Part shown: positions 28,158 to 62,477 of the stretch, in pieces
Layout: each line of letters begins with the position of its first letter
Numbering within the stretch: position 1 is the first letter of the stretch
Assembly (NCBI GenBank): GCA_012064415.1
Contig: SSNU01000002.1
Coordinates: 48,147 to 112,146, forward strand
Length of the DNA: 64,000 nucleotides
From: Gyrodactylus bullatarudis
Lineage: Eukaryota > Platyhelminthes > Monogenea > Gyrodactylidea > Gyrodactylidae
Reading direction: 5' to 3'
Notes under the pieces: generated by a model
Database searches by the model: none
Told to the model about the DNA's origin: nothing
What the model saw: the letters and a program-made list of their open reading frames with translations, nothing else
Position numbers and translations under genes: made by a program

Positions 28158-28175
28158 ACAGGATTTTAGTTTTTT
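28119..28175 (-). promoter_or_regulatory. -1 ribosomal frameshift signal, gypsy-2 gag-pol
   Basis: A AAA AAC (28175-28169) followed by the gag TAA, 6-nt spacer, stem 1 CCTGTATGGT (28162-28153) with ACCATGCAGG (28141-28132, one G-U pair), stem 2 GACGGTT (28149-28143) with AACCGTC (28125-28119). An H-type pseudoknot at canonical distance. Stem 1 changes against gypsy-1 keep pairing. Confidence 0.85.
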
Positions 28176-30955: not shown

Positions 30956-30957
30956 TC

Positions 30958-38079: not shown

Positions 38080-38490
38080 AAGGAGAAAGTTAACTGATCT
38101 TATCAATCAACATTTTAACAACATACAATTGAAAATTGTATTTACAACTCAGAGATTGTTTAACCTAATTCATAAAGATTTACTGAAACCTGAAGAGAAA
38201 ACTCTATTGATTTATAAATTCCAATGTGACTGTGGAGCTACATATATATGACGTACAATTAGGAAGTTGTCAACTAGAGGGAACGATCATCTTAAGAAAG
38301 ACACAGCGGTGACCAGGCATCTAAGACAGTAAAGGAATAAAGCTTCAATCTCAAACTTTTCAATTTTATACAAAAATACAGGGGATGACAGTTCAGACGT
38401 TTGGGTGAAGGAGAAATTCTTTATAAATAGATATAAACCAAACTTATGTGTTCAAAAAAACTATTCTTATAATCTTGAACTACCTTGACC
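38080..38490 (+). pseudogene. PLE family C GIY-YIG endonuclease, C-terminal part
   Basis: Reads TTQRLFNLIHKDLLKPEEK, then LLIYKFQCDCGATYI (GIY-YIG equivalent: IYKF and TYI, with CxC), KLSTRGNDHLKKDTAVTRHL, and a C-terminus FINRYKPNLCVQKNYSYN ending ELP at 38488. One TGA inside the YIG region and small frame changes. Followed 150 bp downstream by the family C hammerhead. No PIP-like motif at this terminus. Confidence 0.65.
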
Positions 38491-38639
38491 TATGAGAGTT
38501 TTTTCACTCTTCTCTCCACTGTTGCTACTTATTGGAGAGTTTTGGTGTTTTTTTAGCTTACATTACTTTCTTTGACATTTACTATTTCTTTCATAATTTG
38601 TAAAATATTATTTTTAATGAATTCTCAACTTATATTATT

Positions 38640-44153: not shown

Positions 44154-45560
44154 TTACATCTGGGAAAAATATTTGGTGATCTTGTTTTGTCCTATTTCAT
44201 CGTTTGATCTGTTTCTTTTGGGGATAAAAGTGTTGGTTGCGAATTCATTAGTGTTGGCCTTGGTAATACCAGTGGTTTCATGAATTTCTTTTAGATACAT
44301 AGATTTGGCTTTTGTTTTTCTGTGTATAATGCCTCAGCGGTTTTAAGAGCTACCACGTTGTTTGTAAATAATTTCAAAGTTTAATGGGGAAACTTTTTCT
44401 GGACAGGTTCTCGTATGCTCCCTTATGGCTGTTGTCCCTGTTTAAAGATGTTCGTTGATAAGAGTGTCCGATTCAGCTTGACATAAACATCTGAATTTGT
44501 AGATAACATGAGTTTGTTTTAGTGTGTCTGATTTGTCTCTTAACTGATTAGGGAATATTTTCGCTTCTTCGTTCGGAAAAGTAGATTTGAAAACTTCTTG
44601 GAGTCTTTTCTTGCATATTTGGCATTTTTGGTCTCCTTTAAATGGTAGATACAAACACTTTTTGGCCTTTTCTCCCTCTCGTTCTCTGTTTTGTTCGATC
44701 TCGATCGTTTCTACACATTTTTCTAGAGTCTTCGAATATACTCAGATAATTGTTTTCTTCGAAGATTTTAGTCAGTTTTTCTTTTTCCTCTTCCCAAAAT
44801 TCTTCCGAAACGATTTTCTTTGAATAATGAGATTATTAATCCTCTTTTGGAGGAAATGAATAATAATTTTAAAGCTTGCCCGTGAAAGATGATTTTCTAA
44901 AAATTCTTCTTTTAAGTTTTCCTTCTTGGTTTCTTTCTAGTTGTACTTCTAGAAAAGGTAGTGTCTGGTTAGATTCGTTTTCCATAGTGAATTTTAGATT
45001 TCGATGGGCCTTATTGAAGGAATTGAGGATTTCTTCTCGGTCATATGTATCTTTGATCAGAAGAAAGGTGTCATCCGCGTATCTAATATAGTGTTTTGTG
45101 TTTTTAATTTTTTACTTCAGGTTTTGGGTTTCCATCTTTTCCATGAAAGCTTCCGCTTATAATGGGCCGAGTGGTGATCCCATTGTTACTCCGTCTTTTT
45201 GTACGTATATATATTGAATGAAAAAATTATATTTCTGAAACATTAGTTTATCAGTCTTCTTGTCCGTTTTGATTATTAGAATAGGTAGGTCCACTTTTGT
45301 GTGTTGCTGATAGACTCATGTCTACTATTGGTCTGAATTTCATATTTCTTGAATTTTTGCTTCTTTCCTTTTATGAATCTTCGGAAGACCGTACATTATA
45401 TTCGGTTTGCTGTTTGTAGTTCTTAGTTCCTCAAACTGTCTTTTGTCTATGGAAGAGTAATAGCTTCAATTCTGTTTTACATTTAAGCTCTAAAGATTTC
45501 GGGTTGAAGTCAGTGATCTTTAGTGATGCTCTTTTGAATTTAGTTCTGTCAGATATTATA
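44154..45560 (-). pseudogene. PLE family B polyprotein: RT, GIY-YIG, PIP-box-like C-terminus
   Basis: Minus-strand retroelement protein in several frames. RT: IMYGLPKIHKRKEAK (about 45370), DGVTMGSPLGPL (45170), YIRYADDTFLLI (45080, catalytic DD), FTMENESNQTLPFLEV. Linker: EEFWEEEKEKLTKIF, YLPFKGDQKCQICKKRL, IFPNQLRDKSDTLKQTHVIYKFRCLC (split here: the last part is the GIY half of the endonuclease). The YIG half is partly deleted, then TAIREHTRTCPEKV. After a frame change: KANTNEFATNTFIPKRNRSN and the terminal GQNKITKYFSQM stop at 44154. QNKITKYF matches the canonical PIP box exactly. Several stops and frameshifts; not functional as read. Confidence 0.7.
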
Positions 45561-45587
45561 TTCCATGTATATAGTCACACTTATTTA

Positions 45588-46233
45588 TTAGGGCAAGACC
45601 CGTTCTGTAATTTTAGTTGCTCTATCGAACTTATTCATACTCGAATAACAAGCCTTCTCTAAGTTCTCTTTAATAATATCTGAGCAATCTAATAATTTCC
45701 CTGGTAGGCTTGCATTATTATAACTTATATAGAGCTTGAAAATATATAAATATAAAAACACACTAATTAATCTTGGAAGATTCTCCACAACCTGACTCCT
45801 ATTATTTGACCTGTTTATGGAAGAAAAGAAGAAAAAATTCACAGATTTTTAAAATTTTGAGTTTTACTTTTAACTTAACATGTGTAAATTTTTAAATATA
45901 AATTTTCAAAAGGAGAAATTTTTCAATTCCAAACTTTACTAATTTCAATCGATAAAAGATCCCTGTTATCCCCGAAAATGTATATTATAATATTTCCATT
46001 TCTTCAATATAACTTTTTCCTATCTTTGATTTATAATATTAATCAAACTAAAGATTTCGTCTTCTCCATTCTCTTTATTTAAGACAAAACTGAGTTTTAT
46101 TAAGATAAAAATTATTAAAAGAAGCATACTTTATAATGATTATGTATGAAATAACATTGAATATTAATTCATTTATAATTTATCTTGCAATCTAAAATTC
46201 ACGATTTTTACATAGTGTTCTAAGACTTTTATC
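45588..46233. other. Spacer without recognised genes
   Basis: The minus-strand open frame 45588-45842 has no known motif and adjoins the PLE B RT; it might be PLE B N-terminal sequence. The rest is AT-rich. Confidence 0.3.
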
Positions 46234-47370
46234 GGCTAAACTTTACTTTAGGGGCACCGTGATTTTATATAATAAATTTCCGTTACTACTCATGAGTAAA
46301 CGTGAAAATTAATAAACTAAATTAACTAAGATGTGATTTATTCCATAAATTTTCGAAATGCTTAACTTCTCAAGGTCAATCAAAGATTTGAAACGAAAGT
46401 TCTATTGAGAAATAAATATTTTTATTGAAAAGTATAAATTTCTGAGATTGCATGGAGGGTAGCCTGAAAAATATTAAGTGGACTGTTCCTTCGGAATAGA
46501 TACATCATCAAATAACTATCTAATAAATTCTTCCTTTTTTTACGGAAATTTCCAGCGTCTCTCTTGGCTGCTCCCCAAATAAACTCAATGCGGTTGATAC
46601 GGTATCCATCTCTATTCACAAACTCATATTCATGACAAACTGTTTTGTGGTCGTATCCCTCTTGACTGAGTTTCTTATAGGATTTATGTTGATCCGAGAC
46701 AATGATGGAGCCAGGAACAATTCTTCTTGTTATGAACTTGAGGTTGTATCAATATCAGCTTTGTAGCACACAACTCTAATAATAACCAAGATTTTCCATA
46801 TTTGAAGATGTGATCTTGCAAAGAATGTTCCTTAAAAATAAATTAATTAGAATTACCATCTCGAATTGATTTTCTTCTTTTGCAAGTCGAGCACCGAAAA
46901 ACATATCCATCAATAGATGAACTGTATTCTCCGAGATACATTTCACCATCCCAGTCATCGTGGGACATAGTTAGAGGAATGAGTTTAAGTCGTTGACACA
47001 CTTCGACTATTCCCTTTTTATCTTCATTAGCTCTTGCAAGAGTGATTATATTTAGGCTTTCAACATTATCGAGGGTAATATCGTTTATAGATGACATGTT
47101 GTTATAATTAATTTGGTCTTTGCGGTTTTTGAATCAAATTAACAAAATAGTTTTATTTTTCTTTATTTTTGTTAAAATTGACCGGTTTTATAAAAAATAT
47201 AATCTATTATATACAAGTTTTGGAATTTTACTTGTACATTCTTAAATTGTGAGTATTTGATAAATTTATGAAATAATTATGCTTTCATCATGTTTTATTA
47301 TGTTTTTCTACTGTTCTACTTTTTCCTATATATATATATACAGCCGGTGCCCCTAAAGTATAGTTTAGCC
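46234..47370 (-). mobile_element. Merlin-2, internally deleted
   Basis: Ends GGCTAAACT(T/A)TACTTTAGG (about 24 bp inverted repeat at 46234 and 47370), similar to Merlin-1 in the first seven bases. No matching 8-bp TSD (CTTTTATC against CTTCCGAA). Contains a transposase gene with its middle missing. Confidence 0.72.
46422..47097 (-). pseudogene. Merlin transposase, catalytic middle deleted
   Basis: Start ATG 47097; VCQRLKLIPLTMSHDDW, zinc ribbon CSTCKRRKSIRD, then a 26-nt GT...AG intron (46856-46831) at the same site as the Merlin-1 intron, giving SIRDGTFFARSHLQIWKIL. About 46760 the sequence jumps to RRIVPGSIIVSDQHKSY (second Asp), HEYEFVNRDGYR and RIEFIWGAAKRD, ending ISEIYTFQ at 46422. The first catalytic Asp block is missing, so the copy is non-autonomous. 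Confidence 0.75.
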
Positions 47371-47547
47371 CTTCCGAAAATTAACGAATCCATATGTTTT
47401 TTCTTATCAATATACCGATAATACATCAGGATATATTGAAAATATTCACGCAATTTCTCGCGGAGGTTCACTCCACCAACTTTGTCCACTGTATTACATT
47501 CAAAAACATTCAAAATTTTACCATCATTTTACACTTGAATTTGATTG

Positions 47548-47663
47548 GTTGGACCCTTCTACACCCTCATTGGTTAATATTATTGGGGCAGAGAGGTGTA
47601 AAAGACATTTGCTCATGAAATAAATACCTATCTGGCGTCATTATGTGTGTAATTGACTGTACT
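47548..47663 (-). mobile_element. pogo/Tigger-like terminus, solo
   Basis: Minus strand starts CAGTCAATTACACACATAA next to a TA, then TTTTACACCTCTCTGCCCC and CCAAT(GAG). Same end as the element at 52947 and those at 61630 and 63241. Confidence 0.6.
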
Positions 47664-47879
47664 TAAAAATAGAAATGAGTTAAGATCAATCATGGGAAGT
47701 ATTCGTCATTACGGCATATTCTGTAAAAAAATTTTGATCAAGACTTAAATTGTGTACGATCTGATCGTAGTTCAGCTCATGATGAAAAAAAATTTTTTAG
47801 CTGAAATTTAAGAAGAAATTATTACTCCTCACAATATTGAAAAGGACATTTACCTCAGTACTAAAGCGTAATAATTTTT

Positions 47880-48960
47880 TCTAGAGTTGAGAACAGAAAA
47901 ATGGCGATTCGATTTACTTGAATATGATTTTATTATCAAGTACAATTATGGTTATGGATGGCCAAATTATATTCCAGACATGATGCGAGAGTACTCAAAG
48001 AACATCAAGGTAAACCAGTAGTTCCATCAGATGTAAGAAAACTAATTCTTGAGAAATCGCATGATCAGCCTCAAGGACAGAGTCTGATGTTGGAATTTAC
48101 TCGCAGATAGGTTTATTGACCAAATATGCCCAAGAACATAGCTACATACATTGGCAGATGCAGAGTATGTCAAGAGAATAAGAGACATTGAATTGAAAGA
48201 GAATTAAAGCCCTGGCAAGAAAAATTGTTTTTTTTGATTGAGTTCATTTGGACATAGCCCAGCAAGATTCCAAAATGTTGTTGTTGATGGTGTATGCGCA
48301 CACAAACTGGATTCATGTGAGCGAGGTGAAAGATTTATCATCTAATGAGGCGATGAAAGTTTTAAACATGGATTTCAAGAATTTCTAAAACTGAATAAAA
48401 TTGAAAATAGGCCCACACCTCCAGGTCATCATAATTTAAACGCTCAAGTTTGGAGCAGTTCATGCGAGATTTCAAAGTCTGAAGTTTCAAAACCCAAGGT
48501 GGGCTGGTCTCTAAAAAATTTGCAGAATTTTAATAATAGAGAGCCAAGGGCATACGCCAGAAGATATAATACTCATGTGCAGGAGATTTACCCCTTAAGA
48601 AACGTAGGTAAATACGGAGAACAAAAAGCCGGTCTACAAATTTGCGGAAGTACAAGGGTATGTGGAAGGTCAGATTACCAAAAAAATATCCAAGCTAGTC
48701 GGCATAGATGTGAGAGGTCGAAAGGTACACAGGGCAGATGTTATGGCCAGACCAAAGGGCATTCAGCTGGATTAAAGTGAGTACGAGAAATAGAATATCT
48801 TTGAGGCGATAGAAAAATCCTGCGAAGAAGAAAGGCCAACTTAGCGACCAGCAGAGACACAACAGCTGGAACTGAAGAGGTCGGACAGAATCAGAAACGC
48901 GCTAGATCGGTTGGATCTATGAATCTTGAAGGGGCTTGATATAGTATTCGATCATAATCA
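47880..48960 (+). pseudogene. gypsy-4 pol debris
   Basis: Heavily decayed Ty3/gypsy pol. Recognisable pieces in shifting frames: KWRFDLLEYDFIIKY and YIPDMMREYS (RNase H end and pre-integrase), VHLDIAQQDSKMLLLMVYAH (first integrase Asp), SSNEAMKVLNMDF and RPTPPGHHNLNAQV (Glu region). The order and the PPGHHxLN block match gypsy-5. No LTRs found. Confidence 0.6.
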
Positions 48961-49685
48961 AATTGTACTAAATTGATTATATGAACATTTTGACAATGAT
49001 AATTTAAAGATTCCTGTTTAATTTGTTCAACCAGATATATGAACATTCTCTCTTGTATTTAATAGAGAATTTACTTATTAAAACACTTATATTAGATAGC
49101 TGAGACAACGAGATTCTTATCGACCACCATACATGAGAATTCAGAATGTATTTTTTGCTGCTTTTTTGTTTCACTGATAGCAATCATTTAAAACTATTTT
49201 TTTGTCATAAGAATCTTTTTTGAATAGAATTTTAGTTATATAAATTTTAAAAGGTCAACCTTTGTGTAAGTTTAGAAAAAAGTAAATTAATTTGACATTT
49301 GATTGTAGTTGATAAAATATATTCATGTTTATAATCCGATTTTTTGATAATCTTGAAAATCTCCTTTATAATCTACATATGGCTTATTAGAAGACCAATT
49401 GACATATGAAATTGAAATAAGCATTTTTTTCATACTTTATAATAAAAAAATAGCCGTTTATGTGGATCTCGCTGTCATCATTCACTAACTTGCAATAATA
49501 AGTTTGATTGACTTTTATTTGAAAAAAATAACTAATTAATAAATTCCCCTTTCCCTGTATTTATTTATTTGAGCATATATAGTATGTGTATGACATATAT
49601 GATAGTTTATATTATTTAACCATATTTCTGGAATAGATAATACACTTGATATACGATTTAAGGGAAAACCCAGTGAAAATTAGGG
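48961..49685. other. AT-rich spacer
   Basis: Nothing recognised. Confidence 0.4.
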
Positions 49686-50647
49686 GTCCCCTTAAGAGTT
49701 CCCTTCAAAGGGGATGCAGCTCACCAAATATTAAACAACAAGCTCTTTGAAATAACCAAGAGAGCATTCCCAGGCCACAAACTACAGATACTGCCGAGAA
49801 CAACTTAACTTATACCTGATCTCAACAAGGATCCTGTCCCATGGCTTGAGAAGAAAGGCGTTATATATTTGTTCAAGTGCAAATGTGGATCGACGTATGT
49901 GGGCCAAACAGTGAGACCAGTAAAGGCAAGAATCAAAGAACACTTGAGCCCAGGTAACAAAGGTTCTGCTGTCCAAGAACACCTTCGTGATACAAATCAC
50001 ATGGCTGATGTGACTAACTTCAGCATCCTGTTTCAAGTAAACCCTAGTGACACGCGCAAGATGAAAGCAGATCCTTGGACAAAGCTGAGGCCCACTTCAT
50101 TAAGAAATTAAATCCAGTCTTATGTAAACAGAAGATTCTTGCAACCAAGCAAAGACTTACAGGTAAAAGTCGATTTACAAACAAAAGTAAGCTTGTAAGA
50201 GCGGCAAAGCTACTTAAAGATTTTCCCATTGCTAGTTCAACTCAGAAACAAAATGGAAATGAAGTCGGAGTAATAATTGAACCCAAACAGCAAGTAGTTG
50301 AAACTACGTCTCATTATAATCAACTCCAATCTTCTGCCCCAACAACAATTATGATTGAGAATGAAAGTGCAAATACAGAAAAGTCAACGGTAGTTGATAG
50401 TCGAATTAGTTCTCAACCTATAATTAGCAGTATCGGAAATGTGAAAAAGGCTTCACCTGCAAATGGTAAAAGAGGTAGAAAACGTAAAAGTCTGAGTGGG
50501 CAACCAACATTGGACAGATACGTAAAAGAAAACAATGACCATGGATACAAGCCATCAGCCCTGGCACCCCTTTTCTTTCAATACTTCAAATTGAATGGAC
50601 CAATCAGAGGATTTCGATTTTTCAAACATTTTGCTATATATATCTAG
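49686..50647 (+). pseudogene. PLE family A GIY-YIG endonuclease and C-terminal tail
   Basis: 3' half of a PLE ORF. GDAAHQILNNKLFEITKRAF, a stop near 49810, then IPDLNKDPVPWLEKKGVIYL, the GIY-YIG domain (GVIYLFKCKCGSTYVGQT, ARIKEHL, VQEHLRDTNHMADVTNF), a frameshift near 50072, AEAHFIKKLNPVLCKQK (usual end of the nuclease), and a polar tail ending GKRGRKRKSLSGQPTLDRYV, a likely nuclear-localisation stretch followed by a PIP-box-like motif at 50501-50527. The frame stays open 40 codons beyond it to TAG 50645, but homologues stop just after the motif, so the extension is probably secondary. Confidence 0.78.
50600..50646 (+). promoter_or_regulatory. CCAAT and TATA boxes of PLE A pseudo-LTR
   Basis: CCAATCAGAGG (50600) and CTATATATATCT (50634) directly upstream of the hammerhead. 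The CCAAT box recurs at the same distance in the other family A ends (for example CCAATGGAAG at 16.6 and 31.5 kb, CCAATCAGAGG at 7.2 kb). Promoter function is inferred. Confidence 0.5.
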
Positions 50648-50696
50648 CCGGTGTAATAGTCTGATGCGAACCGGTGAAATATAAGCTTTATAACTA
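50648..50696 (+). ncRNA. Hammerhead ribozyme, PLE family A
   Basis: CCGGU (50648) pairs with ACCGG (50670); stem I UAGU/ACUA; core CUGAUGC; GAAA; stem III around UAAGCUUUA; cleavage after A50692. ATG at 50726 (MNSSLESENIFEEARQYFPN) opens the next ORF copy 34 nt downstream. Confidence 0.7.
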
Positions 50697-50725
50697 AATA
50701 TTCACTCGTCTTCTAAATCCTCTTA

Positions 50726-50800
50726 ATGAATAGCTCATTAGAATCAGAAAATATTTTCGAAGAAGCTCGGCAATACTTTCCAAACAATCAAAATGGGAAA
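50726..50800 (+). pseudogene. PLE family A ORF start, truncated
   Basis: MNSSLESENIFEEARQYFPN continues about 25 codons and breaks off near 50800. Homologous starts follow the hammerheads at 2541 (-), 7360 (+), 16480 (-), 31419 (-) and 62659 (+). Shared motif N-I-F/L-x-E-V/A-R-x-Y. Confidence 0.6.
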
Positions 50801-50879
50801 TGAAATTAATTTTTCCCTTTTTCACTGGGTTTTCCCTGGTTTCCCACTTTCACTAGTGTTTTCTTTCTACTCATTGATT

Positions 50880-51250
50880 TCCCATTTTCACTGTAACATA
50901 TATATAGTAAAATTTTAACAGATAAATCCTCTGATTTGTTGGATCAATATCATGCACTAACAAAGCGTAAGGAGGGAACCACACTGCTAATCTCCAGGGT
51001 CATTATTTTCTCTTTACGTATCTGTCCATCAATGATTGACCACCTAAACTTTTACGTTCTCTACCAGGTGTATAATCGTTAGAAATTTTTGATTTACTCA
51101 GGATGCTAATTACTGGTTGAGAGTTAATTTGATTATCAACATTCAATAACTTTACTGAATAGACAATTTTGCTCTCATTAGTATTAGTTGCTGGGACAGA
51201 GGATTGGATTTGATTGAGACGTAGATTTAACTACTTGCTCTTATTGTTCA
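50880..51250 (-). pseudogene. PLE family A C-terminal tail, inverted copy
   Basis: Minus-strand homologue of 50330-50640. Reads QSSVPATNTNESKIVYSV, NQINSQPVISILSK, RERKSLGGQSLMDRYVKRK and TAA at 51003. The PIP-like motif is at 51012-51038. Downstream the sequence matches the plus copy through the CCAATCAGAGG-like block to TATATATA, but the hammerhead is lost. With the plus copy it forms a head-to-head inverted pair around 50650-50880. Confidence 0.7.
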
Positions 51251-51290
51251 CTGATGTAATCAATCTCACTTTAATCTCACTTTTTTTCCT

Positions 51291-51608
51291 ATGAAGATAA
51301 AACGGGGACTGAGAACTGCTCTAGTCAAAAGAACCCGAAGAATTGCATCTGATTCAACGTGGGAGGACGAAATGAAAAAAATGATTAGTATATTCCTTGC
51401 TAATGATTACTTAATTGAGCTGATCAATGACCGGTTGTTGAAGCTTTACACCCCTAAAGAAAAACCAAAAGAGAAGGATGGCGCAACAGTAACTCAGGAC
51501 CTGTTATTTGAAGAAGACAAAGTTGCATCTAAGTTTCAGAAAAAAATTAAACAAACTTTTAGTGAAAATTATCCGAAAGGGATTCTCCGTATAATCTTTA
51601 AAAATTGA
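51291..51608 (+). pseudogene. PLE RT C-terminal segment
   Basis: MKIKRGLRTALVKRTRRIAS, DSTWEDEMKKMISIFLANDY: the GLxxxLVxRxxxI block and following helices between RT and GIY-YIG in PLEs. Ends at a stop after LRIIFKN at 51608. Open throughout, but only a fragment. Confidence 0.6.
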
Positions 51609-51609
51609 A

Positions 51610-52180
51610 GACATCTTATGCAAGAATTGAAGCTGCTCTTGATTAAACTCAGTCAACATTATGGTAGGATTATCGAACTGATATTTTGACTTTTCTTCAG
51701 AGTTATTTAAAACAAATATCGTATGAATTGTTAATGTTTTTAATTTTTTATAAAAACCAAATTTGTGTCGTATCTACTAGATTTCCCCCTATCAGGATGA
51801 CTTACTTACTTATTCACTGATTTTAATAAATTATAGAAACAGCGATTCTGCTTCGCATAATCCTGAAATTCTGTAAATAACATTTGCAAAATATGGACTG
51901 CTGAAAAGTCAATGGTGTTAATTCATGTTATAATGCCAGTTATAAAGTTTTCTTTTCAACTAAATGTATAAAATTCGTATTGTTTAATTAAGAAATGATT
52001 TTATTTATTTAAGAACTCAACCTGTCATAGCACATCTGACAGCAACTACAGAAATGTAGGAGTGCTTGGGTCTAGCTCACTTGAGTCTGGCCCTCTCAGG
52101 TGAATCGAATTCGGGATGAAGCTGCTGTCGTGATCTGGTTATCTATGAGCGTGAATTAGGAAGGAAGTACAGAAATTCAG
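51610..52180. other. Spacer without recognised genes
   Basis: Nothing supportable. Confidence 0.4.
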
Positions 52181-52183
52181 TAA

Positions 52184-52640
52184 ATGAGCATCTATAAAAA
52201 TATTTTCATTAAAGATTCAATGCACAAATTAATTACTTCAGAAGATCCACAAGGCTCCAGAGTAGGATCTCTACTATTTAACATCGTATTCTCAAAAATC
52301 AATGTTAACGGAGCTATGATTTTTAAATATGCTGATGATATGAAGGAAGTCTTTAAATTCGATGATGTTATCGATAGCAATTTTATAAACTCATCATTAA
52401 AAACATTTACAAATGATCTGTTAACTCTAGGGCTGAGCATAAATGAAAACAAAACATTATACAACAAATCCAATCAACAATAATATATGTATTAAAGGTT
52501 GAATAATAAACCCCAAATTCACAGTTTAGGGTTTAAATAACATAATTTTCTCGACTTTACAGAGCATTATTAAGAAATCTACAGGTCTTTTTGTCAACAG
52601 ATGTATACAAATACACAAATGAATCGAAAATTAATTGATG
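52184..52640 (+). pseudogene. LINE RT fragment
   Basis: SEDPQGSRVGSLLFNIVFSK (PQG block), AMIFKYADDMKEVF (catalytic YADD), LLTLGLSINENKTL, then frame-broken IINPKFTV and STGLFVNRCIQIHK. Same family as 33.9-37.8 kb and the 9.3 kb tail (NNNIRINDKIINPKFTV). Only about 150 codons remain. Confidence 0.7.
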
Positions 52641-53402
52641 GAGGTCAAATGAATACAGAGTAATCTCCTTGAAAGCTGCTTACTTGGAGGCAAGACTCTT
52701 CTTTCGTGAAATTTTTCGATCCTGGTCAATTGGTCAATTCCCGGCCTGTAATATCTAAATAAAACATATTTTGGAAAAATGTATTTATAAACTAGAAATC
52801 GAAAGTTTTCTTTTTTTTGCCAGTTCCCTATTCTCCAATAAGCTATGAAAGATCATTGTTAATTTAATTATGATTTGAGCGGAGTTTGTAACCGGGTACT
52901 TTACCTGTAAATCACTGTTTGAAATATCAGTATTTTATTAAATATACAGTCAATTTCACACATGATGACTCGAGAAAAATTTAATTTTTCACGGAGGTTT
53001 TGTTTTATACCTCTATGCCCCAAAATTCCGACCAATCAGCGCTGAGCACTCATTAGCAATAAGGAATAAGCAGTTTTTCACCTCATCCTCAAACTTTCTT
53101 AAAATTAATATACTTTAACTAGGTTTTGCTCATTATATATCATTCGAAAGAGGATTTTCTCCTCTTTTCGATACATTAACAAAAAATTGTCTAGGATGAA
53201 TAATAACAAAGATAAAATAACTATGTTATTTCAACTTTTTACATAAAGAGACTTACACCATTCGAAAGAGCATAAAATTTTATGCATTCTTTAAAAAAAT
53301 CAAACTTTAATCACAAGATTTTCCAGAAAAGTTTGAAAAATAAAATTTGAACCAAAAAAAAAGAATATTGAGAAATATCATCCTAAAATCTTTATCTAAC
53401 CA

Positions 53403-53610
53403 AAACGGATAGACAGAATGCTGGAGCCCCTCCCCTCTGGTGTTTTCAAGTCAAAGGTTAAAATAACATCTCTAACGTGTCAAGATTTTTCCACTACATT
53501 GCGTCATGACTCATAAACACTGCATGTATTTGTGTTATAATCTGTAAATCAATGTCACAGTGAGAAACCTCCTCTCTCTTCTGTCTAATTATTTACTGTG
53601 ATTCAACATT
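53403..53610 (+). repeat. SINE body-like repeat
   Basis: AACGGATAGACAGAATGCTG onward matches 40012-40215 (shared CACTACATT, GTCATGACTCATAA, CACAGTGAGAA, CAACATTAGTATTT). No tRNA-like head here. Confidence 0.6.
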
Positions 53611-53649
53611 AGTATTTCTAGCGTTTCAACTGAAAAAAATATATTTTGA

Positions 53650-53960
53650 AAATAATTTTTTATTCAAAATAATAAACATATTTTTCGCGCTTCTCATAAT
53701 CTTTGAAAAAATTTCAAGTATTTAGTTCTCCTAGCATACCAAATCTTATTTGGTTCTTCAGGAATTTTTCCAATATTTCTGAATGGTTGTAAACCTCTTC
53801 TTTTCGCATGAAATCTTCTATAAATTTCTCAGTGAATTTCACATTCGTAAAACAGTTGACAATGGTCTTCACCTCCACTTCGTCCCAGACCTGCTTCGCT
53901 ATGTATAGTCACTGTCGTAGATCTATCTTCTTATTTACCTCATACATCTTAATTTTGTTT
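53650..53960 (-). pseudogene. pogo/Tigger-like DDE_1 transposase C-terminal scrap
   Basis: Minus strand: KMYEVNKKIDLRQ, stop, LYIAKQVWDEVEVKTIVNCF, then FTEKFIEDFMRKEEV. The AWxxVxxxTIxNCF pattern marks the region after the catalytic core in Tigger/jerky-type (DDE_1) transposases. The catalytic residues are not present. Confidence 0.6.
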
Positions 53961-54149
53961 TCATAAATTCTCAAATTGAGGAGTCGTCTATAATTGCATT
54001 TGAAGGACCTTATAATGCCTTTCGAATGGTGTAAGTCTCTTTATGTAAAAAGTTGAAATAACATAGTTATTTTATCTTTGTTATTATTCATCCTAGACAA
54101 TTTTTTGTTAATGTATCGAAAAGAGGAGAAAATCCTCTTTCGAATGATA

Positions 54150-54970
54150 TACAGGTAAAAGCTCTGTAAAGTGACGAGAGCTGTGTGAATTTGGAAGTAC
54201 ACGTTACTTATATACCATTTCTACACCAAAACTCATGAATTATAGACCAATAGAAATTGAGCATTTGTCGGCCAATCAGAATCTAGCAATATTCCTCCCA
54301 CAAAATTGCTACGGTTCCAAATATATTTTGCTACTAGAATATCAAATTTTACGAAAGGTTGATGAAATATTGTAGATAGTCCACTTCGAATTTTCTCTCT
54401 ATCATATCAGGAAGAGGCTGTAGCAAAAATAGCTTAAGCAATGGTCAGTCATACTTAAATTTAGTATCATTATATTTAGCATAAAATTTTGAGTAAACTT
54501 GGAAATTTTCAAGCTTCTATTCAGAAATATATGGCTAAAATTCGATTTTTAAATCGGTCTCAGATTTTGAATGATTTTAGATGAATAATCAAAAAAGTCA
54601 TTTTTCGTTTTCCCAATCCCATACCCCTCCCCATGATTAGTCATGGGGTTGACCATTTGTACATACATACTATGTATTACATAGGTGTGAATACAAACAT
54701 GTCAATCAAAACTATCACACTGTTCTCCTCATTTTACATACAATAGGGGTTTCTACTAACACATACGCACTCACTATCCCAATGAACAGAGAGTGGGTCA
54801 CACACACACTTTCTATAGAATGTAATCCTACCACGCCATATTTGGATATGAATTTATAATAAACATTATTCTGATCATCACTTTTTCAAGCACAGTAAAG
54901 ATGAACTACATCTGTACGTGTACTTCCAAATTCACACAACTCTCGTCACTTTACAGAGCTTTTACCTGTA
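54150..54970. mobile_element. TA-flanked MITE nested in pogo-like element
   Basis: Element 54152-54968 (817 bp) with 53-bp inverted repeats CAGGTAAAAGCTCTGTAAAG..., TA duplicated at 54150-54151 and 54969-54970. The empty site is preserved in the left arm of the host element (GAATGATATA...), which confirms the boundaries. No ORF. Confidence 0.82.
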
Positions 54971-55369
54971 TGATGAGCAAAACCTAGTTAAAGTATATTA
55001 ATTTTAAGAAAGTTTGAGGATGAGGTGAAAAACTGCTTATTCCTTATTGCTAATGAGTGCTCAGCGCTGATTGGTCGGAATTTTGGGGCATAGAGGTATA
55101 AAACAAAACCTCCGTGAAAAATCAAAATTTTCTCGAGTCATCATGTGTTCTATTTTACTTTTAAAATCTACTTCAATATATCTTGAAGGCTTTATCTTTC
55201 TTAAAAAAATGATGTTACTTCAACAATGTTCCTAGCTTTATATTGTGAGTTTATTAAAAATTAAAAAAAATTTATTTCAGAAATAGGCTAGTTTACCTAA
55301 GGCATCGTTCTTTTCCTCAGGTAATGGTGTTAAGAAGATTTCATTTTGGATAATTTACTCTTTCTACCC

Positions 55370-55578
55370 CGAATAATAAACCAGACTTATGTTTTCAAAA
55401 GAATTATTCTTATAACCTTCAAATACCTTGGCCTATGTAACCTTTCTCTCCACTGTTGCTATTTATTTTGGAGAGTTTTGGTGTTTTTCAGCTTACATTT
55501 ATTCTAATTTTCTTCAACTTTTACTATTTCTTTCATATTTGTAAATGAATTTTCATTCATCTTTTAACTTTTATCATT
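55370..55578 (+). pseudogene. PLE family C C-terminal scrap
   Basis: PDLCFQKNYSYNLQIPWPM resembles the end of the family C ORF at 38.4 kb (PNLCVQKNYSYNLELP); following GGAGAGTTTTGGTGTTTTT also matches. Upstream coding is lost. Confidence 0.5.
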
Positions 55579-55627
55579 ATCAAAGAGACACTACTGATGA
55601 ACCATTGAGAAATGTACATTTGGTGTT
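55579..55627 (+). ncRNA. Hammerhead ribozyme, PLE family C
   Basis: UCAA pairs with UUGA in the loop; stem I CACUA/UGGUG; CUGAUGA; loop ACCAUUGA; GAAA; stem III AUGUACAU; U cleavage site. Complete core. Confidence 0.7.
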
Positions 55628-55652
55628 AATATTTCTAGATTTGCTGTTTGTT

Positions 55653-56654
55653 ATTTTTACTGGGACTGGGTCGATTTTATTAATTCGATATGTTAGTAGA
55701 AATACTTGTTACATTATTTTAAGGTTCTCTGCCCTCAGGTTTCATATGATTGATGTTCAAATGAATTTGATAGGAAATTACATTATAATTCCCAGTTAAA
55801 TTAGGGGTAGAGAGGAATATACGGAGTGTGCGTAGGTATATACTGCGACTTTTTATTATTTTTCAACCCATCAAAGTTCTAAAGTAATCTATCTTTAAAA
55901 TGATCAAGAAACCGTTCAAAAACTCGTAGAGCCACAATCAACCCCTCAAATTGAAGGTAAACATCTTCGGATTTTTGTATAAGAATTCAATTTTATCGTA
56001 CAAAATACATCTATTTATATTCCAAAGAGTTTATGTGAGCATTAGCTCTAGATAAATGAGTTTTCAGTTTCATATTAAAGTTATTGGTGAAAATTACAAG
56101 TCTCTCGTAGCCTTGAAACTTTGATACTCTTTGATAATGATCTTCTTAATTCACGCCATACACGCTCTATTGTATTTGTATGGGCTCCTGTTCTATGGTC
56201 TTTGAACCCTCTCTTATGGTTCACAGTGAAGTGTATGAATGGAATTCCTCGATACGACTTCCATTCATCTGTTATCACAACAATACCCGGAGCTACGTAT
56301 TCACTGAACGATAAAATTGAATTCTTATACAAAAATCCGAAGATGTTTACCTTCAATTTGAGGGGTTGATTGTGGCTCTACGAGTTTTTGAACGGTTTCT
56401 TGATCATTTTAAAGATAGATTACTTTAGAACTTTGATGGGTTGAAAAATAATAAAAAGTCGCAGTATATACCTACGCACACTCCGTATATTCCTCTCTAC
56501 CCCTAATTTAACTGGGAATTATAATGTAATTTCCTATCAAATTCATTTGAACATCAATCATATGAAACCTGAGGGCAGAGAACCTTAAAATAATGTAACA
56601 AGTATTTCTACTAACATATCGAATTAATAAAATCGACCCAGTCCCAGTAAAAAT
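55653..56654. mobile_element. Large inverted repeat with Merlin-3 transposase end
   Basis: Arms 55653-55998 and 56309-56654 (about 346 bp each) are almost perfect inverse complements around a 310-bp centre. A Merlin transposase fragment spans the centre and enters the right arm. No TSD identified; the left end adjoins the family C hammerhead. Confidence 0.75.
56081..56356 (-). pseudogene. Merlin (ISXO2-type) transposase C-terminal fragment
   Basis: Minus strand: YVAPGIVVITDEWKSYRGI (second catalytic Asp), FTVNHKRGFKDHRTGAHTNT, IERVWRELRRSLSKS (Glu region). A more bacterial-like HTNTIE signature than Merlin-1, so a different subfamily. The first Asp region and zinc ribbon are missing; the first 16 codons lie within the inverted repeat arm. 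Confidence 0.72.
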
Positions 56655-56659
56655 ATAAC

Positions 56660-57080
56660 TATATTTAATACTCTTAAATATGATTAGGTTCTGTCATTGG
56701 CTTGAGTACCAACATTTTTAAAAATAAACAAAACATATTTTTCAAAGGAACACTTTTGTTGATTGAAATTCATTTATCTATCTTAAAAAAATATCGAACT
56801 CGATATCCATTCTAAACATATTAACCCTTGAAGTGCCACAGTGATAGTTCTATCATTATAATCCTTTCAAGCCTCAGTACATCGTTTACCACCCATTCGA
56901 AAAGGAGTTTATTAATCTCCTGGTTCTATCATTCGTAAAACTTGGGCTATACCCACAATAGAACGGCCTCCTCAGCTCACAATAGTAGCCAACCTCAAGG
57001 AAAAGGATGAGGCTTTCAGATTTAGAAAATAACTCTAACAAAATTACCAAATACTTTAGCCAATATAAATTGATTGTGAA
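56660..57080. other. Spacer without recognised genes
   Basis: Nothing supportable. Confidence 0.4.
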
Positions 57081-57084
57081 ATCA

Positions 57085-57165
57085 ATGAATAGTGCAGCAG
57101 CTATACTTAAAAAGGTTAACTAGAAATATTTCGTTCTAGGTGCTTAGGTGATATATCCATTTTTT
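57085..57165. repeat. Repeat R4, copy 2
   Basis: Matches 29555-29640 (AATGAATAGTGCAGCA to TCTAGGTGCTTA). Confidence 0.65.
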
Positions 57166-57284
57166 TATAATTGTGAATTTCAACCAATAGAATTTAAGGT
57201 CATTTGAATTTTGAGTTATTACTTGTTTTCTAAATGGACTTGCTAAATAATAATGAGCTCTGTTGGATCTTATAAATAATATCT

Positions 57285-59350
57285 TCATGTACACCACACC
57301 AAATCATCCCCTTTTGAAGTACTTTTACAGACCTCTATTAGTCTTTCTCGTGGACATTTCAGCTTGATAGATTTTTTTGTTGCTATCCTTTGGGGGTCAT
57401 CAGCCGATTCAGTGGGATCACGATCAAGGATAATGGGGGAAGAAACTTTCTTGTCCACTTTGATAGTGTTCGCATCATGGATCAATCGACCATTGTTGTC
57501 TTTCCAGGTGCGTGTCGAGTTTATTTGAGCGAAAGAGGTCCTTCCCACCCAGAAGATTCCAAATATACCAGTGCTTCTTTCTTTTCGGCCATTTGTTCAG
57601 CCTTGAGTTTCAGGAGTAAGTCAGTTATTCGACGGAATGAGAACACCAACTGATTGGGGATTATCCCCTTCGAATTCAGTTGAGAGTTCCTAATTGCCAA
57701 AAATTCCTTGATAGTTTTGCTTGACGATAATATGCTGGTTTTGGCCATGAAAATTCGTATATCTCGAATTAAGGAATCAACTAGACCATTCAACTGATGA
57801 TGTCCAGGTGGGATCTGAACCAAGAGAATTCCTTTGCCCTCAGCATAGTCCTTCATACGTTGGTCCCATTATCTGAGTGGGTGTCAATCGTGGGATCCGC
57901 TGATAGGGACGATAAGAGTTTGACTTGAACCCACTTCGAATAAGCATATATTAGTACCAGGAGCTTTGAGCCATCAAGGTGAGCAACATCAACATGAACT
58001 CTTTCAAGGCAGGCTTGCGGTTCACTCCGGGATCCAAGGTTGGCATTTAGGGGCCTCCGACGATTTTTCTGACAAGTTAAGCAGGAGTTAGCAAATTCCA
58101 TTACATCAGCGTACATAACTGGCCATCAACAATATAGCTTCGCTAACTCATACATGGTTTTCTGAGCTGAGTGATTCGCATGCAGCAACTGTAACACCTC
58201 CAACCGAATCTCGCGAGGAATGACAGGTTTTTGGGCCAGATAAGCTACCTTGTTGTCAACATAATGATCATCATTTAACGGTAGGAATTGTCTCACCAAC
58301 TTTTTTTTACCCTTTCCCGATCGATCAATTTGCTTTAATAATAATACATACAGGGTGTCAGTTGTATTTCTAATTTTATTGAGTATATGATCTGATTCCT
58401 CCGTAACAAGGTTGACCTAAAGTATAACATGGTAATCATCAGAAATAAAATCTTGTTCTTAAGACAGGCCAATCCTAGAGAGTGCATCAGGAAATGCCAT
58501 GAGTTGTCCTTTTGTGTACTGGATATCAAAGTTGAATAGCGAAAGCCACTGTCTCCAGCCATCAATGCGGAATAAGATCGGCTTGTTCTCCGTAATACAA
58601 GAAAATATGAATCTAAGGGGTTCGTGATTTGTTTGGATGATGAACTTCTGACCAATTAAGAATCTATAGAATTTTCTCACACCATACACAATAGTCAGGT
58701 CCTCTCAATATAGAGTATTTCTTCTCGGCTGGGCGTAGCGTGTGACTAGCATTTTGCACTACCGATTTCATTTCAGCGTCGTATGAGATTACCGATCCCG
58801 AACCATTTGCAGATGTGTCAGTGCTGAGATACAGCGTTCTATTGGGGTCGAAGAAGTGCAGGGATGTCTTCGCAATCTTAACCAAATTGTCCTTTAAAGC
58901 TTTCGTGAATTCAGGTTTCCAGGTCCTGGGAGCCTCGTTCTATAGTAACTCAAAAACCTTTTTAAGTGTGGGTGAATAATCCTTGCAAAGGATACCATAG
59001 TATTGCAACATTCCAAACAAACTTTGCAGCTCCGTTTTGTCCTTGGGTTCACCTTACGCCTTAGAAATTCTTTCCGGATCTGGGAACATTTGACCATTCT
59101 CAGTGATAAATTCCATAAACTTGATCTGCTTTTGACACTGTTGGAGTTTGAGCAAGTTCATTTGAAACCCATGCAGTTGAAGCCTCTTCTTAACTTGTTC
59201 AAATACACGGTCGTGCTCAGCCATATTTGACCTACCCACAATAATGTCGTCTTGGAATACAGCAGTTTTAGGGATGCCGTTTAAGGTTCTGTTCATGACC
59301 TCCTGGAATATTATGGGAGGAGGAGACAGGCCAAATTGCAACTTGGGAAC
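57285..59350 (-). pseudogene. pol: gypsy-5 pol, broken
   Basis: Minus-strand Ty3/gypsy pol lacking gag, protease and LTRs. RT: MQFGLSPPPIIFQEVMNRTL, active site VFQDDIIVGRS (59240; FQDD), RNase H: TLYLSTDTSANGSGSVISYD (58810), FIIQTNHEPLRFI, LMAFPDALSRIG; integrase: CLTCQKNRR finger part, VHVDVAHLDGSKLL (Asp, 58000), THSDNGTNV (Asp, 57860), PPGHHQLNGLVDSLIR (Glu replaced by Asp in the usual xxAE position), then WEGPTSFAQINSTRTW (57540). Frame changes at about 59060, 58890, 58680, 58440, 57853 and 57540. Relative of gypsy-3 and gypsy-4. Confidence 0.8.
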
Positions 59351-59354
59351 TGAA

Positions 59355-59960
59355 AATACTCCTATGTGTGTAGAGATTCACGTCAAATATTGTCCATGTT
59401 ATGCCCATGTAGCCATGTTTTAATGAGTAAGAGCAATCATGTCACTGAGAGGATTCAAAAGTAGTATATTTTTTATGATTCGAATTTATGGTCCAAATTT
59501 TTCAAAAACTGATTTGCCACTGATGAATCAAAGAGAGTGAGAAAGTAAGAGTGTTCTTCACCTTTATATGTATGAAATACCAAATCTTAAATAGAATTTT
59601 TTTTAAAACCATTTCATGCTGCCTTTTTGATCTTCCACTTTGAAATGAATAAAATTTTCAGCTCAAAAGTCAAAATGAATATAAAATTTCATATTTTTGT
59701 TTTTATAATTCTTTTTAATATTTGCTTCAAATGGTGAAAATATGAATATATCTTGGAGGCTCATTTTGGTGTGAGTTTTAATTAAAATCTTTTCTGACCA
59801 TCATCCATTCAATCGAATTATTTTTAATCGATGAAAAAAATTGATAAACGACCTAACTCCTCTAAAACAAAATCTTGAGAGGATAAATTTAAGAAGTTTT
59901 AACCTTATTTACAAAATAAAAATCATTATATTCTTCATGTAGAATCAAAAAAACAAAACT
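59355..59960. other. Spacer without recognised genes
   Basis: Nothing supportable. Confidence 0.4.
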
Positions 59961-59963
59961 AAA

Positions 59964-61150
59964 TACAGTTTTTTTTCAAGGTAACAAATTTTCCTGGATG
60001 CTCCTAAAAAAGGACCGTAACCTTTTGATATCTGTTTACATAATTATTTTATCATGTCAACGTGAATAGCCAAATAAAAATCTAATTCAAAGACATGGGG
60101 AAGCGTAAATTTTTGTCTGTCTAACCATGTATACACTACCCCCACCCTGTCATGTCAGCTTTGTGCAAAATTTTCATGTATACAAGGATGTCTTCCCAGA
60201 TCAACGAAAAGGAAATTTCGACTTAAAAAAACATTATTTTTAAGAGTGGGACTCTGTAAACTGGTCTCAGATTTTTATTCTAAATTTGTTCTCTGACTTT
60301 TCTAGATTTCCTCATTTCTCAAACATGTTTATCACAAATTAAGTTAAGATAAAATAAAAATTAATCAAAACATTAATGAAAACTCTGTTTAACATCTTTG
60401 ATTATTGTGCAAGGCATCAGCAACATCCTGGCAATTGATACTATACCAAGCATCACACAAAAAGGAAACGTCCTCAGCAGCAGAGAAAGAGATTTCACCT
60501 TAACGTTCAAGAGCCTTGATCTTTTCAGTTCTCCTGTTAAAATATCTCTTCTTCAATTTAGATATCAAAGGGCAGTTCTTGACGAATTCGCATTGAAGTT
60601 CCCGGCGCTCTCTGTAGCTTATTCCGACAATTCTCTGGCCAGTAGGACAATTTCTGATTAGAACTTTGGAGTTTGGTGGAATTCTTCTCGTGGCTTCATA
60701 AACCAAATCTTCAATTTGTTCTCCACTCGATATACGAAGCAGCTCTATAACTGGGTTGTTGAAATTTCCTAGAATGTAAATTTCGTTAATTAAGTTTAAA
60801 AGAAATTGTCAAGAATCTTACCCAAATTTTTCATTGGAGTTATCATGTATTTTTCTGTTCATACCTTCAGCAAAATTTTTTTTTAAGTCGAAATTTCCTT
60901 TTCGTTGATCTGGGAAGACATCCTTGTATACATGAAAATTTTGCACAAAGCTGACATGACAGGGTGGGGGTAGTGTATACATGGTTAGACAGACAAAAAT
61001 TTACGCTTCCCCATGTCTTTGAATTAGATTTTTATTTGGCTATTCACGTTGACATGATAAAATAATTATGTAAACAGATATCAAAAGGTTACGGTCCTTT
61101 TTTAGGAGCATCCAGGAAAATTTGTTACCTTGAAAAAATTTTTTACTGTA
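59964..61150 (-). mobile_element. TA-flanked element with 265-bp inverted repeats and cargo ORF
   Basis: Element 59966-61148 (1183 bp). Inverted repeats about 59966-60235 and 60875-61148, ends CAGTTTTTTTTCAAGGTAAC and its complement, TA at 59964-59965 and 61149-61150: a Tc1/mariner-superfamily signature. The internal part encodes a spliced ORF that does not look like a transposase. Confidence 0.78.
60500..60846 (-). CDS. Spliced ORF of unknown function inside a TIR element
   Basis: Two exons on the minus strand: 60846-60822 and 60768-60500, joined over a 53-nt intron (GTAAG...TTCTAG); in-frame stop just upstream of ATG 60846 sets the start. About 97 residues: MITPMKNLGNFNNPVIELL, RISSGEQIEDLVYEATRRIP, KVLIRNCPTGQRIVGISYRE, then a basic C-terminus (LISKLKKRYFNRRTEKIKAL). 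No DDE, zinc finger or helix-turn-helix seen. Open throughout. It may be a captured host gene fragment or an uncharacterised element protein. Confidence 0.45.
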
Positions 61151-61431
61151 TATATAAATAATCATCTCAGGCTATAACATTAAACTATATCATATGTTTC
61201 ACTAACTTCTCACAAATTTCCCAGCCAAAGAAACAGTAAACTTTATCCTCGACGAGTTAGCTAAATATTCTTCACTTTATTCGGAGTGTCTGCCTCTATT
61301 ATTAATTTGTTCTTTATCTTCAGAGACGTCACTCCTATCTCTTTTCCTAACCTCTTAAAATAAATAAATTTCATAGTGTTTGCTCTTATTGAACTATTTA
61401 TGAGGAATTCATTGAGAGGATTGAAAGACTA

Positions 61432-61486
61432 GTGAATATATATTTATAAAGCATTTAATTCACCGGATCTCATTAGACCGACTTGA
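61432..61486 (-). ncRNA. Hammerhead ribozyme, PLE family A, degenerate
   Basis: Minus strand: CGG upstream, core CUAAUGA, loop GAUCCGGU, GAAU, stem III AUGCUUUAU-like. Two core bases changed, so inactive. An ATG (61412, MNSS then stop) follows at the usual spacing, and a CCAATCAGAGG box lies upstream at about 61520. Confidence 0.5.
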
Positions 61487-61559
61487 TGTACATAAAATAA
61501 TGAAAAATTAGAAATCCTCTGATTGGACTAACAGGAATTGAATCCTCTCATTTCTAAAT

Positions 61560-62230
61560 TGTGCAGGAGACACACGATCCACGTTAGAGAACACAGAAGC
61601 TCTCAATCAAGCGTACGATGTTTAAGTTAATTACACACATGATGACACATTGGATAAATCATTTTACATAACTCCATGTGAAACAGACATCGTTGATCTG
61701 AACATTTTTATTGGGGAAACAAAGATTCTTCCAAAAGAGCTTGTATAAGACCTAGGGGTGGTATATAATTGGAAGTTTGAAATCACATAGCATTACTAAG
61801 ACATCATTTAAAAGTTCATTGGCAGATTAATTCATATTTACAAGTATGTTAAAACTGATTCAATTAAAATCCTTCTGTATAAAATATGCCAGACCAGTAA
61901 TAGAATATTGCTCAGCCATGTGGAATCCAAAAGAAGAAAATTGGTCTAAAAAGATTGATACAGCACTCAGGAAATTCAGGAGAAGGATTTCTCCTTATTC
62001 CCAGGACGAATCGGGTTTTTGGAAAGAGAACTTAAAAGCATATCTCTGATCAAATCTTCGCCAATGTTATAACCGCCCAGGAATAAAATCCAATATTTCT
62101 GAATTTGGACAGCTAAAAAAAGTTATATTTAATAAATATATAAATGTTTTCCCACATTAAACAGAAAAATTAAAATTGAGTTTAAATGAATTAAAAAAAG
62201 AACTTGAAGAAGAACATAATAAAGAATAAT
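61560..62230 (+). pseudogene. LINE ORF2 C-terminal part
   Basis: Scattered frames: ETDIVDLNIFIGETKILPKE, DLGVVYNWKFEI, then after frame changes ICQTSNRILLSHVESKRRK / ARPVIEYCSAMWNPKEENW (61870-61935), GIKSNISEFGQLKKVIFNKY and a C-terminus LNELKKELEEEHNKE stop at 62229. Same family as 9.5 and 32 kb. A pogo-like end (TTAATTACACACATGATGAC) is embedded at about 61628-61650. Confidence 0.68.
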
Positions 62231-62231
62231 C

Positions 62232-62477
62232 TTTGATAGACAACCCCAAAACAGTTGTGACGAAGCACTCACCCCAGCAACCATGGTCCCCCAGAATGAC
62301 AACCAGTACACACACACAGGAATTAGTAGAACTCGTTTCTTTTCACAACCAGAAAAATCCACCCCATCAAGGAGAAGAAACGCATCAATATCGCCCCAGC
62401 AACAAAAAGGAAACCAGAGAAAAAAGATCCCGAACAACAACAGGACCATACATGATTACTTCAAGCCTAATACATGA
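62232..62477 (+). pseudogene. PLE family A-like C-terminal tail with PIP-box-like end
   Basis: Frame continuous from 62232: FDRQPQNSCDEALTPAT, a Ser/Gln/basic linker (SQPEKSTPSRRRNASISPQ), then QRKKIPNNNRTIHDYFKPNT and TGA at 62475. NRTIHDYF fits the PIP consensus with Asn replacing Gln. Directly follows the LINE 3' end and precedes the hammerhead at 62582 and a new ORF start at 62659. Confidence 0.62.

Follow-up and report, generated by a model that had tools for sequence, protein, structure and literature searches.

In the genome of the monogenean flatworm Gyrodactylus bullatarudis, Penelope-like elements (PLEs) of two groups, A+C and B+B2+E+F, encode a GIY-YIG nuclease followed by a linker, a basic stretch resembling a nuclear localization signal (NLS) and a terminal peptide that resembles the PCNA-interacting peptide (PIP) box. 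Five such peptides lie in a stretch of 64,000 nucleotides (assembly GCA_012064415.1, contig SSNU01000002.1, positions 48,147 to 112,146 of the forward strand; hereafter the window), and related tails occur elsewhere in the same genome. We favor reading this extension as a lineage-restricted NLS plus PIP-like tail that probably recruits PCNA, an account that the sequence evidence makes likely, if with considerable room for doubt. To our knowledge, little is known about how PLEs reach and finish their targets.

The tail-bearing groups comprise A1, A2, two further A forms from the window, B, B2, E, F and C1 to C4; A1 and A2 were counted as one end, which leaves 11 tails for comparison. Long family A frames run through the reverse transcriptase (RT), the GIY-YIG nuclease and a tail of about 105 residues that is predicted to be disordered, and end in SLSGQPTMDRYVKRKQ at the stop. 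The stop-free frames at loci L009, L010 and L012 (656, 656 and 654 codons) span RT, GIY-YIG and tail, with the stop right after SLSGQPTMDRYV[KR]RKQ; the open frame of L064, a family C copy, has 581 codons. Read up to the stop, the family A ends are GQPT[LM]DRYVKRKQ, GQLLIDGFLKRKK and GQSLMDRYVKRK, and those of B and B2 are GQNKITKYFSQM and GTNKITKYLSASQ. Families E and F, which occur in the flanks of family C loci, finish with VNRQITDFYPPTQ (also given as NRQITDFYPPTQ) and TNQQITQFFSATQ (also given as NQQITQFFSATQ), and C1, C2, C3 and C4 with NNKSIHDYFKPNT, GTRTLDEFLTVPRA, NNQTIDVFLTAPRV and GTQQIHKFFTANKQ, respectively. Beyond A, B and C, six groups (C2 to C4, B2, E and F) also finish with [QNT]xx[ILM][DTH]x[YF][FYLV]. 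With [ILM][DTH]x[YF][FYLV] as the anchor for aligning the 11 tails, what the comparison shows is that each carries the pattern 3–5 residues from its stop. In this alignment, built on the pattern itself, all 11 tails have an aliphatic residue (I, L or M) at position 4 and an aromatic one (Y or F) at position 7. An aromatic residue (F or Y) also occupies position 8 in five of them (B, E, F, C1 and C4), and Q stands at position 1 in four (the three A forms and B).

The families entered the comparison by different routes. A, B and C were picked from the window owing to the motif, C2 to C4 were obtained by a tail-homology search rather than a motif search, and B2, E and F were first spotted by motif patterns, after which a motif-free profile scan listed E, F, an upstream piece of B2 and two further families, D and D2. 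Among flank families with a readable end that were not derived from a query, three of five are boxed (B2, E and F); L082 and L062 each contain another flank piece that is interrupted short of its end. A genome search with the 161-residue tail of the window copy near 50 kb gave at least 156 matches. When 30 loci were fetched per family, the end was found (agreement at 7 or more of the final 12 residues) in 27 for A, 29 for B and 25 for C, and the motif was kept in 24, 24 and 21 of these; the 30 loci per family are not independent, because they include the window copies L001, L031 and L061 as well as overlapping loci (e.g. L022/L028, L079/L088 and L085/L086). The original prediction had named open family members without the motif as evidence against it, and such members are not what we found for A, B and C.

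The tails contain other conserved pieces. Short blocks recur in otherwise variable sequence. One, [TK]ST[LV]VD, occurs in A (L009 and L012) and in a number of C tails; in C tails (L064, L091, L093 and L094), RF[FY]SQPE or RYFSQPE also precedes RKRNxSxSPxQQ, and B has an SQP...RKRN piece in common with them. From their sequence, these blocks look like further short linear motifs. At L092, a family C2 tail meets a stretch of N in the middle of the motif, and the open frame of 1338 there is probably an effect of the N run.

The motif occurs far more often than shuffling predicts, in line with the enrichment test set beforehand. For 13 representatives (A and C forms and B; families B2, E and F stand outside this test), the last 30 residues were shuffled 20,000 times. 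The form [QN]xxhxxa[ah] appeared in 0.06–0.83% of shuffles per tail (0.0006–0.0083) and is real in 11 of 13 representatives, C2 and C4 being those without it; the broad form [QNTSKM]xxhxxa[ah] had a shuffle frequency of 0.0009–0.0257 and is real in 13 of 13. Across 426 distinct stop-ended frames of at least 80 codons from the window and the loci, 27 carried the Q/N form in their last 20 residues, of which 22 were PLE tails and 5 other ends, a split made by reading the individual rows.

In family A, the box is under purifying selection. Between A1 (L003) and A2 (L009), the last 16 codons show a nonsynonymous rate (dN) of 0.026 and a synonymous rate (dS) of 1.38, against dN 0.222 and dS 0.399 for codons 17–45 from the end and dN 0.153 and dS 0.935 for the rest of the linker. 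The synonymous excess within the last 16 codons is significant (Fisher p=1.1e-4, rounded counts), and the replacement rate there is lower than in the upstream tail (p=0.04, rounded counts). Two further comparisons of the last 16 codons point in the same direction (L003-L012, dN/dS 0.054/0.878; L009-L012, 0.026/0.41), and L003-L004 has zero changes; the selection test for family A comprises three copies (L003, L009 and L012). Neutral decay of the box, which had been named in advance as counting against a PCNA-binding role, is thus not seen in family A, while in B/E/F and C the picture is mixed and preservation extends to the class of the anchor residues only.

These last families bear on a rival explanation, in which the terminus is merely the end of a nuclear-localization tail whose hydrophobic residues serve structure or import and have no PCNA partner. 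In six family C pairs, the last 16 codons have dN of 0.31–0.86, similar to the linker (0.37–0.81), and the upstream basic block (codons 17–45 from the end) is better kept (0.13–0.36), as this explanation would have it. Among B, E and F, dN is 0.23–0.75 in the box and 0.34–0.47 in the linker, a comparison of 7 codons in which the aligner placed a gap beside the box. Only the residue class at positions 4, 7 and 8 is kept in B/E/F and C. An NLS, however, has no need of xx[ILM]xx[YF][FYLV] at a set spacing from the stop, which the 11 tails compared all show, and conservation across the three tail segments of family A is highest in the last 16 codons. We regard an NLS without a PCNA partner as unlikely.

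The divergence data outside family A weigh against PCNA recruitment, and so does the fit of the box to the canonical consensus. The original prediction described the peptides as fitting Q-x-x-hydrophobic-x-x-aromatic-aromatic; family B does so strictly, but the others require N or T at position 1, L or V at position 8, or both. N replaces Q in E, F, C1 and C3, and T replaces it in B2, C2 and C4; position 8 is L or V in 6 of 11 tails (the A forms, B2, C2 and C3). The whole consensus is present in family B alone, to which both of the 13 shuffled representatives with the strict form belong, and the set as a whole is best called PIP-like. Position 8 is reported to form half of a two-pronged plug (PMC10787639), which counts against the V/L families, and basic residues inside the box, said to disfavor PCNA binding (PMC7225939), occur as K3 and K6 in B and as R6 in A1. 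The weak points of the PCNA reading are the lost Q and the aliphatic position 8 of several families, for both of which human proteins offer precedents. Pol iota KGLIDYYL, with no Q and with L at position 8, binds human PCNA in vitro (0.39, read as μM), as does TRAIP QAKLDTFL, with L at position 8 (30.7, read as μM; both PMC7225939), and the PIP of CAF-1 p150 has K in place of Q (PMC9570017). PIP boxes reportedly bind more tightly when flanked by basic residues (PMC7225939); a basic stretch ahead of the motif, part of the original prediction, is indeed there.

The same departures from the consensus could mean that the peptide is a genuine, selected short linear motif whose partner, instead of PCNA, is another hub that recognizes similar Phe/Tyr peptides, such as the MLH1 'MIP' or REV1 'RIR' pocket, or a set of such hubs. 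An overlap between PIP, RIR and MIP motifs has been reported (PMC7225939), families E, F, B2 and C lack Q but keep hydrophobic residues at positions 4, 7 and 8, and the C tails contain a second conserved block with paired aromatics further upstream (RxRF[FY]SQPE or RKRYFSQPE). Yet family B has a full canonical PIP and A retains Q, and three features, namely the terminal position, the basic flank and an aliphatic residue placed three ahead of the aromatic one, suit a PIP box better than the RIR and MIP patterns; we give a different hub a small chance. Far less credible is a PIP degron, a tag that would have CRL4-Cdt2 degrade the PLE protein during S phase on PCNA bound to chromatin. Family E does have TD ahead of its aromatic pair (NRQITDFY), but the degron, QxxhTDaaxxxB, is reported to require Q, TD and a basic residue four past the aromatic pair (PMC9570017), and 0 of 11 tails combine these, for which reason we rejected the identification; a selfish element would, moreover, hardly be expected to keep a degron.

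Relationships among the families were examined in a GIY-YIG tree, which has few columns, includes 60 of 98 matching external rows and omits the D2 sequence from L066 (D_L066) as too short. A+C (97/91) and B+E+F (98/97) each form one clade, which means that the 11 tails represent fewer than 11 independent events; the tree allows more than one arrangement of A+C, B+E+F, D and six external proteins (81/83). Two histories fit the tree, one gain followed by loss in D or two gains. Shared descent could also account for the likeness by itself, if one or two ancestral tails happened to resemble a PIP box and their descendants inherited the resemblance, and the SQP...RKRN-like piece common to B and C tails would agree with this. 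The divergence of the tails speaks against mere inheritance: dS is high in B/E/F (3.9 or saturated in GIY-YIG, 0.77–1.28 in the linker) and at least 0.78 in the linker of C pairs (yet 0.28 in the last 16 codons of C2-C3), and positions 4, 7 and 8 held their residue class over that divergence. Chance with shared descent, already weakened by these data, seems to us improbable.

The data do not support the motif as a general trait of PLEs. In the same genome, families D and D2 lack a PIP-like box at their ends, a further point against the PCNA reading: D ends in ...LPWPM at the stop in L016, L048 and L071, and D2 in ...LELSWPN, known from a single weak match (L066, E=1e-4). The tail comparison covers part of the open PLE places, as at least 19 others with 500 or more codons exist in this genome, which likewise counts against that reading. 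A search with L012 returned 349 PLE relatives, of which the 120 listed were examined, among them proteins of flukes (Dicrocoelium, Paragonimus, Trichobilharzia), tapeworms (Sparganum, Schistocephalus) and a coral (Pocillopora). Eighty-six carried an end mark, a simple P-x-L-[CNG] pattern with at least one doubtful case (P0003), and none of these 86, which include fluke, tapeworm and coral proteins, has the strict or Q/N box in its last 40 residues. The broad form occurs in one of them, P0113, with the match at its very last residues; across all 120, it was additionally found in P0098, and the Q/N form in P0030 and P0103, which lack the end mark and are cut short in or near the RT region. From the end mark to the C-terminus, the 86 proteins have a median of 18.5 and a maximum of 69 residues; counted from the residue before L-C, the corresponding lengths are 181 for L064, 140 for L012 and 52 for L044, a family B copy. 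The 41 other-genome proteins in the alignment are 27–38% identical to L012, and a search with the family C tail gave no other protein at E<=0.01 among 218 candidates sharing exact 5-residue words. With 0 of 86 end-marked external proteins showing the Q/N form and with families D and D2 on record, a motif universal in PLEs was ruled out.

The elements themselves encode an RT related to telomerase RT and a C-terminal GIY-YIG nuclease. The RT of L012 matches RVT_1 (E=8.4e-10). In a fold search of the PDB with the L012 model, telomerase RTs take the first eight places, at E values of about 1e-8 to 5e-8 but TM-scores of only about 0.3, with other polymerases close behind; telomerase matches are expected for a PLE. 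The Pfam GIY-YIG model PF01541 scores above its cut-off in A (L012, E=2.8e-6) and C (L064, E=9e-5); family B (L044) does not reach that cut-off and aligns with the GIY-YIG ends of PLE proteins. An AlphaFold2 model of L012, built from 43 sequences, has a mean predicted local distance difference test (pLDDT) score of 80.1, with 370 of 654 residues at or above 90 and RT and GIY-YIG mostly confident. Residues 549–654 fall below 50 in this one family predicted, and residues 646–653 form a low-confidence helix covering the second half of the box. The model predicts a disordered and accessible context for the family A box.

The presumed partner, host PCNA, is represented in the genome by a single match that lies in a 261-codon open frame. 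Among the first 15 proteins that it hits in a database search are 13 from flatworms (71–82% identical, one of them read as Taenia solium from its gene code) and one from a plant; among the 120 of 2998 hits that were listed, the best are Fasciolopsis and Opisthorchis (82%), with the monogenean Cichlidogyrus at 66%. In three stretches that we take to belong to the PCNA pocket, LQAMDSAHVSLV, KLMDLDVDHLGIPDTDYKC and YLAPKIED, it is identical or similar to the six PCNAs of flatworms, arthropods and molluscs with which it was compared; the loop KLMDLDVDHLGIPDTDYKC is identical to that of two flukes, and YLAPKIED is the same in all six. Judged by its sequence, host PCNA looks normal, with the pocket stretches conserved.

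Turning to the window, all five predicted peptides are present where they had been placed. GQLLIDGFLK (16847-16876, +) is followed by RKK and the stop and preceded by KRKRKR; it belongs to a decayed family A copy with broken frames, of which a broken tail piece is all that remains. QNKITKYF (44166-44189, −), the canonical one, precedes SQM and the stop in a decayed family B copy, whose frame end (the stretch before GIY-YIG, GIY-YIG and the tail, with in-frame stops; 44157-44735, −) was identified by tblastn with L044 and L046, and whose RT fragment (44848-45246, −) by tblastn with L012 and L064. In the family A copy near 50 kb, a GIY-YIG region in frame 3 (49686-50084, +; 88% identical to L012 residues 373–503) is shifted relative to the tail in frame 2 (50051-50647, +), which contains GQPTLDRYVK (50498-50527, +). 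Right after YVK, this frame leaves that of other family A copies, misses the family's usual stop and overruns it, so that 39 more residues follow. GGQSLMDRYVK (51012-51044, −), followed by RK and the stop, ends a further family A copy, this one 5′-truncated (55% identical to the L012 tail). NRTIHDYFK (62439-62465, +), followed by PNT and the stop, ends the tail frame of a 5′-truncated copy (62223-62474, +; 78% identical to L064 residues 501–581). An early stop in four of five copies, after 2–3 residues, had been predicted correctly.

The 62439 copy had been assigned to family A, giving two families in the window; it belongs to a third, family C, being 78–79% identical to L064, whose 581 codons span RT, GIY-YIG and tail. 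Directly upstream, 61831-62046 (+) resembles what we take to be the C-terminal end of an unrelated long interspersed element (LINE; ARPVIEYCSAMWNPKEENW...). A LINE identity for the 62439 site itself, considered on account of that upstream frame, was dropped, its relatives being RT plus GIY-YIG PLEs such as L064. All five window copies are dead, through a frameshift between GIY-YIG and tail (50 kb), internal stops (44 kb), 5′ truncation (51 and 62 kb) or reduction to a tail piece (16.8 kb), which also weighs against the proposal: because every copy is broken, the window alone is no proof that the motif ends a working protein. Copies elsewhere in the genome, with the long frames of L009, L010 and L012, do show it at the end of an open PLE frame.

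Weighing these data together, we put at about even the chance that, in one animal lineage, at least two PLE clades acquired, or alone retained, a disordered tail with an NLS and a terminal PCNA hook that ties target-primed insertion to loaded clamps. The basic stretch would most likely bring the RT/nuclease into the nucleus, where the box would dock on host PCNA with residues 4, 7 and 8 as hydrophobic anchors and residue 1, where it is Q, in the Q pocket. By tethering the protein to loaded clamps, the box may let target-primed reverse transcription start at or near sites of replication or repair, with RNase H2, FEN1 and ligase close by to complete insertion. It is by inference from the peptides that we propose PCNA docking, fork recruitment and a role in insertion. 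If true, this would suggest that target-priming retroelements came to depend on the replication clamp on more than one occasion, and the eight-residue peptide would be a simple, mutable handle on clamp recruitment in PLE insertion, with the box-free families D and D2 as natural controls in the same genome. The genome is compact (77 Mb) and holds many diverse PLE copies, tailed and untailed, with open frames of up to 875 codons, making it a good system for PLE biology.

Other elements share the window. These include the GIY-YIG end of a decayed copy of family D, the counter-example without a PIP-like tail (38087-38491, +), RT fragments of another decayed family A copy (14650-15834, −) and a fragment of another family B copy covering the stretch before GIY-YIG and the start of that domain (30892-31214, +). 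Two long stop-free pol frames of the long terminal repeat (LTR) retrotransposon type lie at 25140-28181 (−) and 19883-22069 (+). An RT that scores the same as that of the first occurs in another frame, of 1013 codons, elsewhere in the genome (C455), which suggests that this LTR element was copied recently. A 224-codon frame at 11654-12328 (+) resembles what we presume to be an IS1595/ISXO2-type transposase.

PLEs of flukes, tapeworms and coral, the Penelope element of Adineta vaga and PAc of Anolis share with the elements described here the combination of RT and C-terminal GIY-YIG. Unlike the tailed families, the 86 end-marked external proteins finish soon after the nuclease and carry no Q/N box. 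The main texts of the Adineta and PAc papers do not use the terms PCNA or nuclear localization, and a PMC full-text search, in which subscription papers and preprints are mostly not covered, gave no PLE paper mentioning PCNA. The R2 retrotransposon is alike in its target-primed reverse transcription; it is reported to have neither a PIP box nor a known PCNA role (PMC10830420). Host proteins offer parallels in the peptide: in FEN1, PolD3 and TRAIP the box is C-terminal or nearly so, and TRAIP shares the L at position 8 with several families here. All three have Q at position 1, where families E, F, B2 and C instead carry N or T. Pol iota, a host Y-family polymerase and not a retroelement, resembles the tails that have no Q and an L at position 8. 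Four papers in PMC link PIP boxes and PCNA to LINEs and non-LTR retrotransposons, and judged by their titles and the opening of their abstracts all concern LINE-1. In LINE-1, ORF2p is likewise a retrotransposon RT protein with a PCNA-interacting motif, and its PIP box is reported to be needed for retrotransposition (PMC10830420). The ORF2p box lies between endonuclease and RT (tower, residues 404–419), a placement that the PLE box does not share, as it stands at the extreme C-terminus after the nuclease, in another class of retroelement; if it binds PCNA as proposed, it would correspond to the LINE-1 PIP box while being placed independently.

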